Positions 57,050 through 62,539 of a stretch of DNA of 64,000 bases are shown here, one piece after another. Both the position numbers and the translations under genes were made by a program. The DNA is from Bacteroidia bacterium (GTDB lineage Bacteria > Bacteroidota > Bacteroidia > Chitinophagales > Chitinophagaceae), in the NCBI GenBank assembly GCA_030429205.1, contig JAUICZ010000003.1, forward strand, positions 62,001 through 126,000. Direction: 5' to 3'. The notes below the pieces were generated by a model. The model worked only from the letters and a program-made list of their open reading frames with translations, had not been told where the DNA came from and searched no databases. Position 1 is the stretch's first letter. Every line of letters starts with the position of its first letter.

Positions 57050-57060
57050 AATTGAACACC

Positions 57061-57837
57061 ATGAAACAACTACTATTATTAACTCTACTTTTTTTATCAT
57101 TCAGCAGTAATGCTCAAAGAGTAGTTGAACGTTTAATAGACGCGACTTGGGAAGAGTGGACTTTTGGATTTAAAGAAGGCTATACATTTGAACGAGACAC
57201 TACTTTGTATAAGCAGGTAAGGTACTACAACCACGATTTTTACAAGTCGCCGAAGTATACTAAAATCATCTCAAACGTAACTGTATTAAAAACTAATACC
57301 CATAAAAATGGAATAATTACAATTATTGCGCTTGATGAACATAAAAATGTTTTGGTAAAAGGGTCATACAAGCTTAAACCCAAACCTAATGTATGTGGTT
57401 CTACCCCGGGGAGCTGCTATCAAACTTATGGGATATGGGAAAAATATTCTCTTGACGGAAAACTACTGTACAAAGGCTCATACAATTGGACAAACTATAT
57501 AGAAGTCGGCAAATGGGAACGTTACCATCAGAATGGACAGCTCAAAGAACTATATTATAAAAAGCTATTTGCAAAAGACGAATACGACAAAGGCCATTCT
57601 TGTAAAACCGGCAATTATGAACGGTACTATGAAAATGGCCAACTAAAAGAAAAAGGGGCATATAAGGCAGTCGTTGAATCAGATTATTTAGATTCCTTTT
57701 ATACCATTGACAAGAAAAGTAGCCAAATTAGTTCCAAAACAAAAAAGCCAAATACACCACACTACAAATCTGTAAAAACTGGCACATGGTATTACTACAA
57801 AGAAAGTGGAGAGTTAGAGCGTAAAGAAGAATATTAA
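57061..57837 (+). CDS. Secreted MORN/YwqK-type repeat protein
   Basis: 258 residues from the ATG at 57061 (signal peptide MKQLLLLTLLFLSFSSNAQ). The middle and end contain MORN-variant repeats: GIWEKYSLDGKLLYKGSY, VGKWERYHQNGQLKELYY, GNYERYYENGQLKEKGAY, TGTWYYYKESGELERKEE. These repeats are the hallmark of the YwqK family, once annotated as antitoxin-like, with no settled function. It is 11 bases after parE and 11 bases before the next gene, hence probably in one transcript. Location periplasmic or outer membrane. Confidence 0.8.
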   Translation: MKQLLLLTLLFLSFSSNAQRVVERLIDATWEEWTFGFKEGYTFERDTTLYKQVRYYNHDFYKSPKYTKIISNVTVLKTNTHKNGIITIIALDEHKNVLVKGSYKLKPKPNVCGSTPGSCYQTYGIWEKYSLDGKLLYKGSYNWTNYIEVGKWERYHQNGQLKELYYKKLFAKDEYDKGHSCKTGNYERYYENGQLKEKGAYKAVVESDYLDSFYTIDKKSSQISSKTKKPNTPHYKSVKTGTWYYYKESGELERKEEY

Positions 57838-57848
57838 CACAACCATCT

Positions 57849-58595
57849 ATGCCCTTAGACTTTAAAAAAGAATACGAACAATTAAGCAATGAAGAGTTGC
57901 TGAAGATTGTTCGTCAAGCAGATCAATATCAGCGCGAAGCAGTTTCTACTGCACAAGAAGTTTTAAATACCAGAGATGTAACTGAGGAGGAAGAAAACAA
58001 AGTAGACAGGCATTTTTATAATATCGAAGCTGAAAAGCAAGCTGTAAAAGACACTAAAGAAGCAGCAAAAAAAGCCGTCAGCAGTAAGCTGCAAGAGGTA
58101 GTAAACCCTTTCAACAACAACGATGGTAAACCCAAACCTGTTCTGTGGTTAAACATGTTCATCATTGCATGGGTGGGCTTGTATTTATGGAAATTACCCG
58201 GTGACATAAAGATCTTATATTATATAACACAAGCCGACTATGATTTTGTTTGGGACCATTTCTTCATATTCCTGATACTGCGTATGTTCTTCATACCATT
58301 GACCAGTATTCTGCTTTACAAAAGATCTCTTTGGGGCTGGAAGCTGTTGTCATTTTACAGCATTTTTCAATTAGGCATGGCGCTACCTATCATTCTTGGC
58401 ATGATTAAAGGTAGCCACTTATCTTCCGGCACAAGTACGCAATTTTTTATTGGCTGTGGCTTTTATAGTTTACTGGTTTACTTCTTATTCAAACCGGAGA
58501 TCACAGCATTATTTAAGGTTACCAAGTCTATCAAACGAAAGGTTATACTCAATACTTTAATAATATCTCTTATTATTGCATTACTCTTAAGGTAA
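57849..58595 (+). CDS. Hypothetical membrane protein with cytoplasmic helical N-terminus
   Basis: 248 residues. The first 95 are soluble and rich in Glu, Gln, Lys and Ala (EYEQLSNEELLKIVRQADQYQREAV, AVKDTKEAAKKAVSSKLQEV). Five hydrophobic segments follow, the first at about 98-122 (WLNMFIIAWVGLYLW), the last at the C-terminus (VILNTLIISLIIALLLR). The N-terminal part, with LSNEELLKI and QxEAV, resembles the short helical region of Bacteroidota proteins that precede DUF-type membrane domains, but I cannot name a family. It lies between the MORN-type gene and the metallo-beta-lactamase with gaps of 11 and 10 bases. Confidence 0.68.
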   Translation: MPLDFKKEYEQLSNEELLKIVRQADQYQREAVSTAQEVLNTRDVTEEEENKVDRHFYNIEAEKQAVKDTKEAAKKAVSSKLQEVVNPFNNNDGKPKPVLWLNMFIIAWVGLYLWKLPGDIKILYYITQADYDFVWDHFFIFLILRMFFIPLTSILLYKRSLWGWKLLSFYSIFQLGMALPIILGMIKGSHLSSGTSTQFFIGCGFYSLLVYFLFKPEITALFKVTKSIKRKVILNTLIISLIIALLLR

Positions 58596-58605
58596 CATTG
58601 TGTAT

Positions 58606-59340
58606 ATGAGGTTGTGGTTTGCCATATTATTATTACTCTTCAATGCAAAGATGTATGCTCAATACACCTTAAAAATTACGCCCGTTGACAGTAATATATA
58701 CCTATACACCTCTTATGGAGATGTTGGCAATTACAAAAATATTGATGCAAATGCAGCTGTTATAATTTCAGGAAATGATGCAATTATCTTTGATACCCCA
58801 TGGGACAATGCGCAAGCCGCAGAACTAATACGTTTTGTTCAAGACAGCTTAAAGAAAACCATACAACTGTGCATCATCACGCATGCACACGTTGATCGTA
58901 TAGGCAGTATTGAAACCTTTCAAAAAAACAATATTCCCACCCTCTGTTATTACAAAACTTCAGAAGAAGCACCCAAGCATAACCACCCAAAACCAGAATA
59001 CAATTTTTACAATAGAGATACCACACTCAAATGTGGTGATATAGAGATTATAGCATACTACCCCGGCGCAGGACATACAATAGACAATATAGTATTGTAC
59101 GTCCCGTCAAAACAATTCCTTTATGGCGGATGTTTTATAAAAAGTGGTTTGAGCCAATCTATCGGAAATATTGCAGATGCAGATGTTACAGAATGGCCTA
59201 ACAGCGTAAAACGGATGCAACAACGTTTTGAAAAAACAGGAGTTAAAATGGTAATACCTGGTCACGGTAGCTGGCAGTCTGAAATTGCGATAAAAAACAC
59301 GCTCAAGCTTCTAAAAGAAGATGAGAGTAAAGGTTACTAA
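58606..59340 (+). CDS. Metallo-beta-lactamase, subclass B1 type
   Basis: Zinc hydrolase with a signal peptide (MRLWFAILLLLFNAKMYAQ) and 244 residues from ATG 58606; a GTG at 58600 is a less likely start. All zinc ligands of the B1 subclass are present in order: His93, His95 and Asp97 (THAHVDRIGS), His157 (GAGHTIDN), Cys176 (LYGGCFIKS) and His220 (IPGHGSW). The GGCFIK segment and the ADVTEWPNSVKRMQQRF helix that follows are close to known B1 enzymes. Beta-lactam hydrolysis is therefore predicted; resistance in the host is not shown. It is the last gene of the apparent parE operon. No mobile element is near. Confidence 0.88.
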   Translation: MRLWFAILLLLFNAKMYAQYTLKITPVDSNIYLYTSYGDVGNYKNIDANAAVIISGNDAIIFDTPWDNAQAAELIRFVQDSLKKTIQLCIITHAHVDRIGSIETFQKNNIPTLCYYKTSEEAPKHNHPKPEYNFYNRDTTLKCGDIEIIAYYPGAGHTIDNIVLYVPSKQFLYGGCFIKSGLSQSIGNIADADVTEWPNSVKRMQQRFEKTGVKMVIPGHGSWQSEIAIKNTLKLLKEDESKGY

Positions 59341-59357
59341 CCTAATACTTCTGCCAT

Positions 59358-59798
59358 CTAATTAACTTTAAACGATCGTTCTGCTACTACCAAGGTACCT
59401 GCGATAATATCGTGAAGAGCCTGTTTTTTATCCGTAAAACCCGCCATTATATAACCGATAAATAAAATCACAGCAGATATAATCTTACTAAAGTGCCTGC
59501 CTGTTGCTCTACCAAAAGAAATACGCCTTCCAAATTCATCAGTTACTTTTATATCCAGCATTCTTTTACCAAAGGTAGCTTGCAAAGGTCCTGATTCTTG
59601 TAATGAATAGTACAACCAGACAATAACTATCCGTGCTAAATTTGCCCAGCCCGAATTTTCTCCAAAATGTCCATCTATCAAGTAAACAACTATTCCTGTT
59701 GGAATTAAGAGAACAATAGCATCTATAAGAAAAGCAAAAAACCTGGCCCAAAAACCAGCATATACTACCACATTGCCATCTTTATCAATATAATCCAT
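59358..59798 (-). CDS. RDD family membrane protein
   Basis: 146 residues with three membrane helices. The N-terminal FWARFFAFLIDAIVLLIPTG contains the Arg and Asp pair that gives the family its name, and the second Asp is in FGKRMLDIKV, with GRRISFGRATGRHFSKIIS next. RDD proteins are of mostly unknown role; some are Na+/H+ antiporters. It is convergent with the beta-lactamase gene (17 bases between stops, no clear hairpin) and divergent from the membrane protein at 59938. Confidence 0.88.
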   Translation of the reverse strand: MDYIDKDGNVVVYAGFWARFFAFLIDAIVLLIPTGIVVYLIDGHFGENSGWANLARIVIVWLYYSLQESGPLQATFGKRMLDIKVTDEFGRRISFGRATGRHFSKIISAVILFIGYIMAGFTDKKQALHDIIAGTLVVAERSFKVN

Positions 59799-59937
59799 GT
59801 TAATCGAGTTTGTTTATTATAATGGATATTAAAGATAATTTTTTGTCAATAAAGAATCTTAATTCAAAAAAATAAGTTTCCGGCATTGCTAATTATAGAA
59901 TACATTTATATGTTTACATATACCTAAAACAAATACC

Positions 59938-60840
59938 ATGACGAACCAGGCTAACACTACCGCTGGGAAACAAGAAAATGAAGAAAAAAAACTCTCCACC
60001 GGAGACATTGTCCTTCAAGCTGCTCTCACAATATTATTTCTACTTGCTACATTATACCTGATATGGGCTATATATCATGCATGGCCTATTAACAAAGGGG
60101 ATTTAGAAACATCTGTAAGGCTATGGCCTGGGTGTGATGCTATAATGGTTTCACAAGAGCAGAATTTCCTCCTGCTTATGCTACTTGGTGGGGCTACTGG
60201 AGCTATGCTCCATATAATGGTATCATATTCTGCATTTGTGGGCAATAAAGACTTTGTCAGGTCATGGATACCTTGGTATATTCTACGCCCTTTAATTGGT
60301 GCGTTACTGGCTTTAGTTTTTTACCTCCTTCTACGAGGTGGGCTACTAACTTATTCTGCAAGTGCTGACGCTTCTATACCTAACATTGATAGAATTGAAA
60401 GCAAACTGGACAGTATTAGCATGTTGATTCCACAAAAGGAACTTGACTCACCTCCAATCAAAAATGACAGTTTTAATACGGCAACGGTAGCAACCAACAC
60501 TAATAATACATACAGCACAACAGAAAGCAATAAAGAACCTCAAGACAATAAACAACAAGTACCTCTACCCTTAAATCCATTCGGCCTTATGGCTGTTGCT
60601 TGTCTGGCAGGTTTGTTCTCAAAGCAAGCTACTCAAAAGCTTGAAGAAGTCTTCAATAATATATTCTCTTATGAAAACAAGAATAAAAACAAAACAGGCA
60701 AAGACAAAGAGAAGGAAGACCAGGAGAAGGCAGCACAAGAAGAGCAGAACCAGACAACCGTTGATAGTGATGATATAAACGATGCAATACCTGATGCTGA
60801 TGAGGGAACCGAAGAGGACGATAACCAACCAAAAGGATAA
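59938..60840 (+). CDS. Hypothetical multi-pass membrane protein with charged tail
   Basis: 300 residues. Hydrophobic segments lie at about 24-48 (IVLQAALTILFLLATLYLIW), 76-97 (FLLLMLLGGATGAMLHIMV) and 113-136 (ILRPLIGALLALVFYLLL), with a weaker one at about 212-228. A Ser/Asn/Thr linker (about 145-205) lies between, and a highly charged Lys/Glu/Asp tail follows from 240. No family recognised. It is followed after 12 bases by an SH3/Cys-His hydrolase gene; the pairing recalls holin/endolysin modules, but no phage genes are nearby. Direction and tight spacing support joint expression. Confidence 0.68.
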   Translation: MTNQANTTAGKQENEEKKLSTGDIVLQAALTILFLLATLYLIWAIYHAWPINKGDLETSVRLWPGCDAIMVSQEQNFLLLMLLGGATGAMLHIMVSYSAFVGNKDFVRSWIPWYILRPLIGALLALVFYLLLRGGLLTYSASADASIPNIDRIESKLDSISMLIPQKELDSPPIKNDSFNTATVATNTNNTYSTTESNKEPQDNKQQVPLPLNPFGLMAVACLAGLFSKQATQKLEEVFNNIFSYENKNKNKTGKDKEKEDQEKAAQEEQNQTTVDSDDINDAIPDADEGTEEDDNQPKG

Positions 60841-60852
60841 AAAAGAATCACC

Positions 60853-61758
60853 ATGAACCAACAATACCGAACTACAGCAAGCTCCCTGAGGGTAAGAAGA
60901 ACAGGGATGATAGTACGCGATAATATTATCACATCGATACCCAGAGGTACACTGGTAACTGAAAAAGACAATTCACTTTATCAGGGCTGGTTGTACATAG
61001 ATGTAGTGCTGAACAACAAGACAGTAAGCGGATATATTTATGCAACTTATGCAGAGCCTGTTGATACACCTGCACCTGCTGTAACAGAGACCCAGATCAA
61101 AGAAGTACACCTGCCTGTTGAAGGGAAAAACATCTCATTAAACATGACGCATGGCAGGGCATACCCGCTTAACCAACCTGGAATGCCCAACAAAGAAGGC
61201 ACTACACATATCGAAAAAATAAATTCAATATACCGCATAATCAACTTCCTTGATGTGGAGACCAGCCTTAGATATCGCCCTAAAGGAGGGCTTACTTTTT
61301 GTAATATTTATGCCTATGACTTTTGCCACCGCTCACTATGCTACATGCCCCGCGTATGGTGGACAGGGAAAGCCATACAAAAACTATCGGCAGGAGAAAC
61401 AGTACCTGTACAATACGGCGAGACCGTAATAGAGCTAAATGCTAATAGTCTGTACGATTGGTTCAATGAATTTGGCGATGATTTTGGTTGGGAAAGGTTC
61501 TTTGACCTTGACGAGATACAATCAGAAGTAAATAAAGGTAAAACCGGCATTATTGTAGCTAAGCGAAAACAAACAAACAGATCCGGACATATTGTTGCTG
61601 TACTACCGGAAACTGATGATTACAGGGCAGAGCGCATTAATGGAAAAGTCATCAAACCTTTACAAAGTCAGGCAGGTGTTAAAAACAAAAGGATCTTTAC
61701 ATCCAATTGGTTTTATAGCAATCTGTTTTCAGGTTTTGCTTATTGGGCTCACGATTAA
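60853..61758 (+). CDS. SH3-like domain plus putative Cys-His hydrolase
   Basis: 301 residues, no signal peptide. The N-terminal 70 residues look like a bacterial SH3 domain (SLRVRRTGMIVRDNIITSIPRGTLV, YQGWLYIDVV, VSGYIYATYAEP as key pieces). The C-terminal part has a Cys150 in LTFCNIYAYDF and a His246 in RSGHIVAVLPE, 96 residues apart. This is the Cys-then-His order and local sequence style of CHAP/NlpC-like papain-fold amidases. Between them lies YMPRVWWTG and NSLYDWFNEFG. A peptidoglycan amidase or endopeptidase is therefore the best guess. Twelve bases downstream of a membrane protein gene. Confidence 0.62.
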   Translation: MNQQYRTTASSLRVRRTGMIVRDNIITSIPRGTLVTEKDNSLYQGWLYIDVVLNNKTVSGYIYATYAEPVDTPAPAVTETQIKEVHLPVEGKNISLNMTHGRAYPLNQPGMPNKEGTTHIEKINSIYRIINFLDVETSLRYRPKGGLTFCNIYAYDFCHRSLCYMPRVWWTGKAIQKLSAGETVPVQYGETVIELNANSLYDWFNEFGDDFGWERFFDLDEIQSEVNKGKTGIIVAKRKQTNRSGHIVAVLPETDDYRAERINGKVIKPLQSQAGVKNKRIFTSNWFYSNLFSGFAYWAHD

Positions 61759-61800
61759 TTAAGTGTAACATTCAGGCAGTTTTTATCCTATATTCGGGCA

Positions 61801-62343
61801 ATGGAAATCAATTCATTAGGCATAGGCTCTCGTGTAGAGCATCCACATTTTGGGAAAGGAGTAGTTGTAGATGTATCCAGTGAGTTATACATCATTTGGT
61901 TCAAGTCTCAACAAGGCACTAAAAGTATTGGTAAAGATTTCGACCTGAAGGCTCTCGAAGCGGTAGAAGACAGTAGTGGCGTAGGTAATGGCATTACTAT
62001 TACTGATATTGAACAAGCGGTAGATAATATTTTCGAACGCAGACTCAACGAATTTCAGCTAGTGCCTATGGCCAATAAATGGAATAACGGGAAGCTGTTG
62101 ATGCAACCTGCAGATGATAGTTTACAGGCAAAAGAACTACCTATCGAAACCTTCTTCCATAAAATAGTAATGGTACGTGATAGGCTGCGTTTGATAGAAC
62201 AAAAGATAAATTCAAACAAAACCTTGAATGATGAAGAAAAAGTGGACCTACAACAATATATAACTGCCGTATATGGTTCATTAACCACCTTCAACGTACT
62301 GTTCAAAGAGCAGCACCATCAATTCAAAGGTTCAAGTAAATAA
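61801..62343 (+). CDS. Hypothetical protein with tudor/PcrA-tail-like N-terminus
   Basis: 180 residues. The first 50 (GIGSRVEHPHFGKGVVVDV, LYIIWFKSQQGTKSI) resemble the small beta-barrel found at the C-terminus of PcrA/UvrD helicases, which binds RNA polymerase. The rest (about 60-180) is helical (ITDIEQAVDNIFERRLNEFQ, MVRDRLRLIEQKINSNKTLNDEEKVDLQQYI). Such two-part proteins occur as conserved hypotheticals in Bacteroidota; function unknown. A nucleic-acid or polymerase-related role is a weak inference. Separate from the upstream pair by 42 bases. Confidence 0.7.
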   Translation: MEINSLGIGSRVEHPHFGKGVVVDVSSELYIIWFKSQQGTKSIGKDFDLKALEAVEDSSGVGNGITITDIEQAVDNIFERRLNEFQLVPMANKWNNGKLLMQPADDSLQAKELPIETFFHKIVMVRDRLRLIEQKINSNKTLNDEEKVDLQQYITAVYGSLTTFNVLFKEQHHQFKGSSK

Positions 62344-62350
62344 AGGTTGA

Positions 62351-62539
62351 TCATCCCATAATGGATAACCATTCGTAGATCTCGGCTTTGGTCTTACCAA
62401 GCTTTTCTTGCAATTTTTCAAGCAGCTCAATCTCCTTACCTAATTCCAGTTCAAGGTCTTCATCCTTGATGTTGGGGTGTGCCGTTTTAATAAGCTCTTT
62501 CATCTCTGGCCAACGTTCATTAAAATCTTTAGTGTCCAT
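62351..62539 (-). CDS. CsbD-like small protein, divergent copy
   Basis: 62 residues. It shares the layout of the neighbour at 62596: a short opening with a W (NERWPEMKELIK), an acidic mid part, then LLEKLQEKLGKTKAEIYEWL, parallel to LLGKLQNKLGKSRQEIIDWL of the neighbour. The opening lacks the canonical Lys-Gly repeats, so it is a diverged CsbD-like paralogue. CsbD-family proteins are stress-induced in several bacteria; the biochemical role is unknown. Start ATG 62539; 56 bases downstream of the CsbD gene, with a terminator in between. Confidence 0.7.
   Translation of the reverse strand: MDTKDFNERWPEMKELIKTAHPNIKDEDLELELGKEIELLEKLQEKLGKTKAEIYEWLSIMG

Follow-up and report, generated by a model that had tools for sequence, protein, structure and literature searches.

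A membrane protein gene and an endolysin-type peptidase gene as a possible two-gene lysis-like module in a Chitinophagaceae genome

Can two adjacent genes of a Bacteroidia chromosome act together in lysis, as a phage holin and endolysin do, without a phage around them? The question is raised by a 64,000-nucleotide stretch of contig JAUICZ010000003.1 (positions 62,001 to 126,000, forward strand; GenBank assembly GCA_030429205.1, Chitinophagaceae), which we call the window. At 59938-60840 on the plus strand it encodes P0001, a membrane protein of 300 amino acids (open reading frame (ORF) list, hydropathy and family alignments). After a gap of 12 bases, P0002 follows on the same strand at 60853-61758; its 301 amino acids are assigned, from alignments and a structure model, to an SH3 domain and an NlpC/P60-like cysteine peptidase domain of an endolysin-type family. 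A sequence-only reading of this DNA had described the two as a possible non-phage lysis-like pair. We give about an even chance to the view that P0001 and P0002 are a lysis-like unit of two genes that was moved horizontally and whose enzyme is of phage type.

No Pfam or NCBIfam model matched P0002 at its cut-off (NCBIfam gave one weak match over the SH3 part), no PHROGs family matched it, and its matches to PDB sequences were at chance level. A profile match to 2kq8 (E 6e-4), together with the model, placed a bacterial SH3 domain at residues 1-72 (60853-61068, plus strand). When residues 1-76 were compared with bacterial SH3 models, the best match was that of the phiSM101 endolysin (Z 11.1, root-mean-square deviation (rmsd) 1.4, 66 residues), in agreement with the SH3-like domain read earlier from the sequence. 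The model of P0002 was built from 75 aligned sequences and reached a predicted local distance difference test score (pLDDT) of 94 and a predicted template modelling score (pTM) of 0.88. Its alignment, A7, consists of P0002 and 74 rows picked for spread from 89; of 95 loci, L124, L141, L144, L147 and L153 were not aligned and L078 was dropped for a stop in range.

In the model, a catalytic domain with a Tae1-like fold occupies residues 119-301 (61207-61755, plus strand). Residues 120-301 were nearest to Tae1/Tse1 (4eq8; Z 12.6, rmsd 2.5, 131 residues, 15% identity). The next structural matches were Ly7917 (Z 9.0) and PlyGRCS (Z 7.7), which we take to be CHAP-type lysins; they share the same broad fold but match less well than Tae1, and no sequence match to them was seen. 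Foldseek E-values were modest, the best being 8e-5 for an SH3+NlpC protein of Trichomonas, with Tae1 at 2e-3. The usual places of the catalytic residues in an NlpC/P60-like fold are a cysteine opening a helix and a histidine opening a strand. Cys150, the predicted nucleophile (codon 61300-61302, plus strand), is the first residue of helix 150-160 of the model, and His246, the predicted base (codon 61588-61590, plus strand), opens strand 246-250. Of the 75 rows, 74 have both residues; the sole exception is the phage row L080, which has neither. The sequence-only reading had put this pair in a CHAP/NlpC-like setting, and a papain-like arrangement is indeed what the model gives: P0002 is predicted to be an NlpC/P60-like (papain-fold) peptidase with its Cys at a helix start and its His on the following sheet. 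A hydropathy scan of P0002 was free of hydrophobic segments and gave no evidence of a signal peptide; the signal-less second gene 12 bases on had thus been read correctly. P0002 is very probably a wall hydrolase. The phage homologue in L080 (8001-8600), with both residues lost, also forms the longest end branch of the tree and is perhaps decayed or repurposed.

The relatives of the enzyme domain connect it with phages. Fifteen viral contigs (from 111 pattern stretches) encode the P0002 catalytic domain, mostly in proteins of ~200-220 amino acids that lack an SH3 domain. In five of the 15 (L067-L071) the homologue stands directly after a PF05105-type holin gene and a spanin-like gene, in the order ~290-340 aa gene, ~100 aa gene, holin, spanin-like gene, P0002 homologue. 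The holin of L067 matches PF05105 (E 3e-12) and phrog_199; its counterparts in L068-L071 match it by BLAST at 53-92%, and the spanin-like counterparts are also clear BLAST matches. (The names spanin-like, lipoprotein-like and GH9-like, those of lysozyme-like N-termini, the FRG gene of L037, the SIR2 gene of L034 and the SpvB-like gene of L105 were given by eye.) The catalytic domains of these five cassettes are homologous to that of P0002 at 44-51% identity (L070 46%), but the phage copies are 217-220 amino acids long without SH3, and their PF05105 holin is unrelated to P0001 by family searches. In five other viral contigs (L072-L074, L076, L081) a tail sheath gene adjoins the homologue. Because homologues stand in viral holin/spanin-like cassettes, the P0002 domain looks like an endolysin family. 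The homologues show that the enzyme domain belongs to a family present in the lysis cassettes of phages, and we hold kinship of P0002 with endolysins to be likely, with good confidence. The term 'non-phage' of the sequence-only reading is therefore true of the surroundings of the pair and not of the kinship of its enzyme.

A first scan of genome contigs with P0002 alone as the query gave 19 stretches and no relatives, whereas a search with alignment A5 found 325 P0002-family relatives among 339 pattern stretches; locus-level statements on these concern the best 80 of the 325. Upstream in the same frame, a lysozyme-like motif was found in 32 of the 80, a GH19-like motif in 10 and neither in 38, counts that rest on short motifs and that leave at least five long proteins (L106, L108, L122, L134, L146) under 'neither'. 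Pfam confirmed a GH19 domain in L095 only, and no Pfam model confirmed the lysozyme-like domain (L009). Many of the loci L092-L161, as well as L009, L002 and L056, mostly from Proteobacteria, encode proteins of ~530-600 amino acids in which the P0002 catalytic domain is joined to an SH3 domain and to a domain of lysozyme-like or GH19 type. They show no evident signal peptide and would be bifunctional muralytic enzymes, and no Pfam model recognises their P0002-type domain. The fold, the Cys/His pair, the SH3 domain, the lack of a signal peptide, the relatives in phage cassettes and the muramidase-type fusions together support a lysis-type enzyme well.

In genome G073 (L003:13-2136), a GT51 peptidoglycan glycosyltransferase is fused to a P0002-type peptidase, so that synthase and hydrolase lie in one chain. 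This fusion would suit a different explanation, namely a private wall-remodelling enzyme unrelated to lysis that P0001 only docks at the membrane, and so would the many relatives that look by eye like solitary chromosomal genes beside unrelated genes. However, P0002 has no signal peptide, and its family was found in 3 of 147 related genomes, a patchy presence even within genus and family that is unlike a core remodelling enzyme; we consider this explanation very unlikely. In the phylum, 14 of 345 genomes were found with alignment A3, two of them (G166 and G315) by the SH3 part only and G235 by a short stretch only. Two relatives, of Azospirillum and Hymenobacter, are plasmid-borne.

Considering that the catalytic fold is nearest to Tae1, an effector of the type VI secretion system (T6SS), and that Tae4 (PF14113) gave a weak match (16.8 bits, below the cut-off of 27), the two genes might instead be an interbacterial toxin/immunity pair, in which P0002 cuts the walls of rivals and P0001 shields the producer. 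The Hymenobacter relatives near very large genes, the plasmid-borne one with a lipoprotein-like gene upstream, would be in line with this. However, the known immunity proteins of Tae effectors are small and periplasmic, not proteins with several transmembrane (TM) segments. The genome of the window (G000) gave no match to the T6SS sheath protein VipB (PF05943), a search in which E. coli was positive among 14 control genomes and other T6SS parts were not searched, and it holds no tail or extracellular contractile injection system (eCIS) sheath (Phage_sheath_1, PF04984). The viral homologues, moreover, are part of lysis cassettes or have tail genes as neighbours. P0002 thus shares the NlpC/P60-like fold of Tae1/Tse1 (4eq8, 4fgi) but, at 15% identity, differs from it in having an SH3 domain and phage relatives and no T6SS sheath in its genome. 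With neither sheath found and Tae4 below its cut-off, a T6SS or eCIS effector was rejected as the leading explanation, and we regard a toxin/immunity pair as highly improbable. The catalytic residue of Tae1 is Cys30, and its C30A variant is inactive (PMC9270033).

The link of the enzyme to a membrane protein is the second support of a lysis-like module. A P0001-family gene, detected with a hidden Markov model (HMM) of alignment A4 among greedy ORFs, was present in 4 of the 80 loci, each time directly upstream of the enzyme gene with a gap of 10-12 bases: L082 and L083 (Chitinophaga), L084 (metagenome-assembled genome (MAG) 46-16) and L100 (a Chitinophagales MAG). In the catalytic-domain tree the window clusters with L082-L085 (support 100/98), and the closest named relatives of the pair are Chitinophaga. 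In this clade the pair is present in each of the four members whose upstream DNA is available, counting the window; the contig of L085 starts too close to tell. The pair of L100 lies outside the clade. A separate clade of five rows (100/97) carries other membrane proteins in the position of P0001, one family of 228-277 amino acids (L097, L101, L139) and one of 147-148 (L090, L145), the partner in L145 giving a weak holin match (phrog_6384, E 0.007). By hhalign neither family was similar to that of P0001, in alignments of only 2 and 3 rows, so that a distant tie is possible.

A tight upstream gene, defined as one on the same strand at -20 to 30 bases, was present for 10 of the 32 short relatives of P0002, and in 8 of these 10 its product had two or more TM segments; among the tight pairs elsewhere in the same loci this was so for 15 of 123. 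The Fisher p-value is 9e-6, or 2e-4 if two of the eight are left out as close kin, both too small because of relatedness within the two clades. None of the 47 long (fused) relatives had a tight upstream membrane gene. The neighbour counts come from a simple greedy ORF caller, which does not work in some GC-rich loci; the pair scan gave no family ORF in 13 of the 80, and the tight-link count, which read the frame directly, lost one locus (L118). As a pattern, the linkage to membrane proteins exceeds chance. It is typical of holin/endolysin pairs that sequence-unrelated membrane partners are exchanged upstream of one hydrolase family. With two unrelated partner families in one clade, the pattern of partners suggests that the membrane protein was recruited separately and is exchangeable.

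The purine-rich AAAGGA directly before the P0001 stop codon (60832-60837, plus strand) is a possible ribosome-binding site of P0002, and a similar site is present in some relatives of the pair. A recurrent C-terminal Gly of several membrane partners was rejected as a protein motif, as it is probably an AGGA-type site overlapping the stop codon.

P0001 had been described as a protein with three to four TM segments and a highly charged tail, and this description stood. The hydropathy scan gave three strong hydrophobic segments (from residues 24, 77 and 119) and one weak segment (from residue 208). All features lie on the plus strand, and alignments as well as hydropathy were used from TM2 onwards. 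TM1 covers residues 24-48 (60007-60081; segment limits set by us), and the glycine-rich TM2, in which 15 rows all have G85 and G88, covers residues 74-98 (60157-60231). TM3, at residues 116-134 (60283-60339), is preceded by the family signature W-x-x-W-Y, of which W110, W113 and Y114 are invariant in 15 rows. An S/T-rich loop (residues 135-211) leads to a weak TM4 or amphipathic segment at residues 212-228 (60571-60621; also seen in the model), where G225 is invariant. The charged C-terminal tail, residues 229-300 (60622-60837), was delimited from the sequence and the family alignment; it is K/E/D-rich, with 10 K/R and 21 D/E in 72 residues, and has an acidic motif of the DDINDxxPDADE kind that recurs in L082 and L083 and, in a looser form, in L084.

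Several results weigh against a lysis-like module. Pfam, PHROGs and NCBIfam gave no holin family match for P0001, which was rejected as a known holin on this ground and is long for a holin; the P0001-family relative of L084 has no PHROGs match either. The P0001 model is of low confidence (pLDDT 46; helices 21-48, 73-100, 110-133, 214-227 and 229-248) and too poor for a fold assignment. No spanin adjoining the pair was seen by eye, the genome elsewhere not being searched. The enzyme family is rare in described phages, since only two of 50,697 named phage records matched P0002, weakly and with equal length and place (25% identity, E 7e-4). The enzyme is also mostly without a partner of this kind, because 22 of the 32 short and 46 of the 47 long (fused) relatives have no tight upstream gene. 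Genome G174 carries both families, but ~2.4 Mb apart on one contig. Finally, when the P0001 family was searched independently of P0002, giving 15 loci at E < 1e-5 (the weak matches G448, G282, G278 and G323 left out, L038 and L039 included with unreadable neighbours), the next gene encoded a wall hydrolase in only two, the window and G087. Elsewhere the neighbours are an FRG gene (L033, PF08867 by Pfam; L037, by eye), a SIR2-like gene (L036, SIR2_2 by Pfam; L034, by eye and upstream), a metallo-hydrolase (L014, L016) or, two genes on, a Trypsin_2 gene (L170), and the remaining loci have unrelated or unrecognisable neighbours. L037 also encodes a protein with a sub-threshold NLPC_P60 match two genes downstream. 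With no holin family match and relatives beside quite different enzymes, P0001 is at most a putative holin; the varied neighbours make it look like a more general membrane component, and its relatives are possible modular partners of conflict-type effectors. The likeness to a holin/endolysin cassette noted in the sequence-only reading therefore stands for the lysis-type enzyme and for a real pairing in the closest relatives, and not for P0001 as a member of a holin family. Co-occurrence of the two genes was likewise found in every testable case of the window clade and only rarely across the phylum.

The same neighbours favour the main rival, a membrane-anchored conflict (abortive-infection) module, in which P0001 would be a sensor or scaffold for many effectors and P0002 one such effector; a signal such as phage attack would lead to wall cutting and to death of the infected cell. 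In addition to the FRG, SIR2-like, metallo-hydrolase and Trypsin_2 genes, an Amidase_2+SH3 gene also accompanies a P0001 relative (L015). The P0001 family is sporadic, as defence genes tend to be, with 4 of 147 related, 14 of 345 phylum and 3 of 395 class genomes (own genome counted each time), and the C-terminal part of P0001 has a weak PADLOC match to the defence candidate PDC-S05 (E 0.016). However, this was the sole PADLOC match in a scan of P0001, P0002 and four relatives, and the scanned window neighbours are genes of ordinary chromosomal kinds that form no defence island. A wall hydrolase must, moreover, cross the membrane, and a cytoplasmic anchor would not by itself account for this step. 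We judge a conflict module to be unlikely, though it deserves to be weighed seriously; it has most steps in common with a lysis-like module and differs in the trigger and in the role of P0001.

The second hydrolase locus of the P0001 family, L015 in G087, resembles the window in that a P0001-family gene is followed, after 18 bases, by a gene for a wall hydrolase that has an SH3 domain and no signal peptide (Amidase_2, E 2e-15; SH3_3, E 1.5e-5, just under the cut-off). It differs in that the catalytic domain is unrelated to that of P0002 and that a lipoprotein-like gene and a gene for a 109-aa protein follow. A lipoprotein-like gene and a gene for a helical protein of 108-109 amino acids stand after the hydrolase gene both in L085 (1164-1923), where the hydrolase is a P0002 relative, and in L015 (7348-8171). 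The two small proteins are related (E 2e-7), the lipoprotein-like proteins show no likeness by BLAST, and the window has neither gene. These sequences suggest that the hydrolase is the exchangeable part of a larger cassette.

In a lysis-like module, P0002, lacking a signal peptide, would be synthesised in the cytoplasm, and P0001 in the inner membrane, once triggered, would let it into the periplasm. There the SH3 domain would bind the wall, and Cys150 and His246, predicted from the model and their conservation, would cleave one of the peptide bonds of the peptidoglycan. The Tae1-like fold and the activity of Tae1 lead to the guess that this is the gamma-D-glutamyl-meso-diaminopimelic acid (gamma-D-Glu-mDAP) bond. 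The outcome would be lysis or a controlled wall opening of the producing cell.

Phage-type lysis genes outside phages are known, being described from Gram-negative enterobacteria and their kin and from clostridia, and the holin/endolysin/spanin clusters among them are termed type 10 secretion systems (PMC10847048, PMC9527704). Our literature search, which covered only the top of some long result lists, found no such modules in Bacteroidota. Like the type 10 secretion systems of Serratia (ChiWXYZ) and Yersinia entomophaga (YenLC), the window has a signal-less wall hydrolase beside a membrane protein, kin of phage lysis enzymes, and the pair lies outside a prophage as far as the flanks were scanned. 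Unlike them, P0001 is no recognised holin, no spanin adjoins the pair, no cargo gene is evident beside it in the window, and the phylum is another. With no flanking spanin and no recognised holin we do not file the pair as a type 10 secretion system; by analogy, it may work like the holin/endolysin part of one, as phage-type lysis genes kept outside a prophage.

The site of the pair appears to be variable. Window positions 58657-59319 and 61780-62539 match adjoining stretches of L165 from the congener G002, and the segment between them (59341-61779, strandless, ends approximate) is absent there. This extra segment of 2.4 kb holds an RDD gene (59358-59798, minus strand), P0001 and P0002. In G002 the gyrB-like, metallo-beta-lactamase (MBL) and 180-aa genes adjoin one another, with a gap of 30 bases between the MBL and 180-aa genes. 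A second extra segment of the window lies between the gyrB-like and MBL genes, and two such segments near the pair mark a variable site. The scattered presence of the families favours a gain in the window over a loss in G002, although one genome pair alone cannot tell gain from loss. The base composition of P0001 and P0002 (0.40 and 0.41, window 0.39) does not mark them as foreign.

Such a variable insertion region with a phage-type enzyme could also be a decaying phage remnant without present function. Against this, both frames are open and the catalytic pair is kept, the two genes match the window in base composition and occur as a conserved pair in other genera too, and no P0001-family relative was found in viral contigs (71 pattern stretches); a remnant is a remote explanation. 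The absence of surrounding phage genes noted in the sequence-only reading was borne out, with no phage family among 16 flanking ORFs of the window (Pfam; two gave no family), the 64 kb not being prophage-scanned as a whole. A prophage location was rejected on this result and because PHROGs gave nothing for P0002 and a chance-level match for P0001. The scanned flanks contain gyrB-like, MBL, RDD, cupin and other chromosomal genes. The immediate neighbours of the pair are the RDD gene and the gene for the 180-aa protein, which has no TM segment or lipobox evident by eye.

Further observations concern genes around the pair and its relatives. At 58600-59340 the window has a gene of metallo-beta-lactamase fold with a hydrophobic N-terminus (by eye), in a gene order common with G002. 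An MBL gene also lies near the P0001 relative in L014, but a link to the pair was rejected, as the MBL of the window belongs to the genus order and a convergent gene lies between. At 57052-58595 are two genes, one for a MORN_2 repeat protein and one for a membrane protein of 248 aa, both absent from G002 at the same site. Proteases are encoded near P0002 relatives in L084 (10541-11320, papain), L087 (4950-6092) and L149 (9044-10108; both subtilases) and L056 (5013-6050, astacin-type); they have no evident signal peptide and are possible cargo of lysis-dependent release. GH9-cellulase-like genes (by eye) adjoin P0002 relatives in Chitinophaga (L082:9006-10976, L083:8981-10852) and Runella (L090:8922-11402). 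In Hymenobacter (L105:7157-7901), a protein with an N-terminal TM segment and a coil-like part and then a secreted protein with a C-terminal TM segment, spanin-like by eye, are encoded upstream of the P0002 relative, and an SpvB/TcB-like gene lies farther along. A conserved gene of ~470-513 aa lies beside the P0002 relative in L059, L060, L062 and L063, from four genomes of one genus (Flavobacterium-like by eye).

P0002 represents an endolysin-type catalytic family of 325 loci that no Pfam, PHROGs or NCBIfam model recognises and in which both the membrane partner and the muramidase domain can be exchanged. Should P0001 export or gate P0002, a folded hydrolase would leave the cytoplasm by a new route; should P0001 be a sensor, wall hydrolysis would be tied to membrane proteins that are found beside SIR2 and FRG genes. 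A bolder idea, which we hold to be distinctly unlikely, is that P0001 founds a modular membrane-gate family of the Bacteroidota, whose members form phage-independent self-lysis units with endolysin-type or amidase hydrolases and immune-type death units with SIR2, FRG, metallo-hydrolase or protease partners. Were this true, one gate would serve wall-cutting and cytoplasmic effectors alike and tie phage lysis cassettes to bacterial programmed cell death. If the pair is a lysis module, cells could lyse themselves or open their wall on command.

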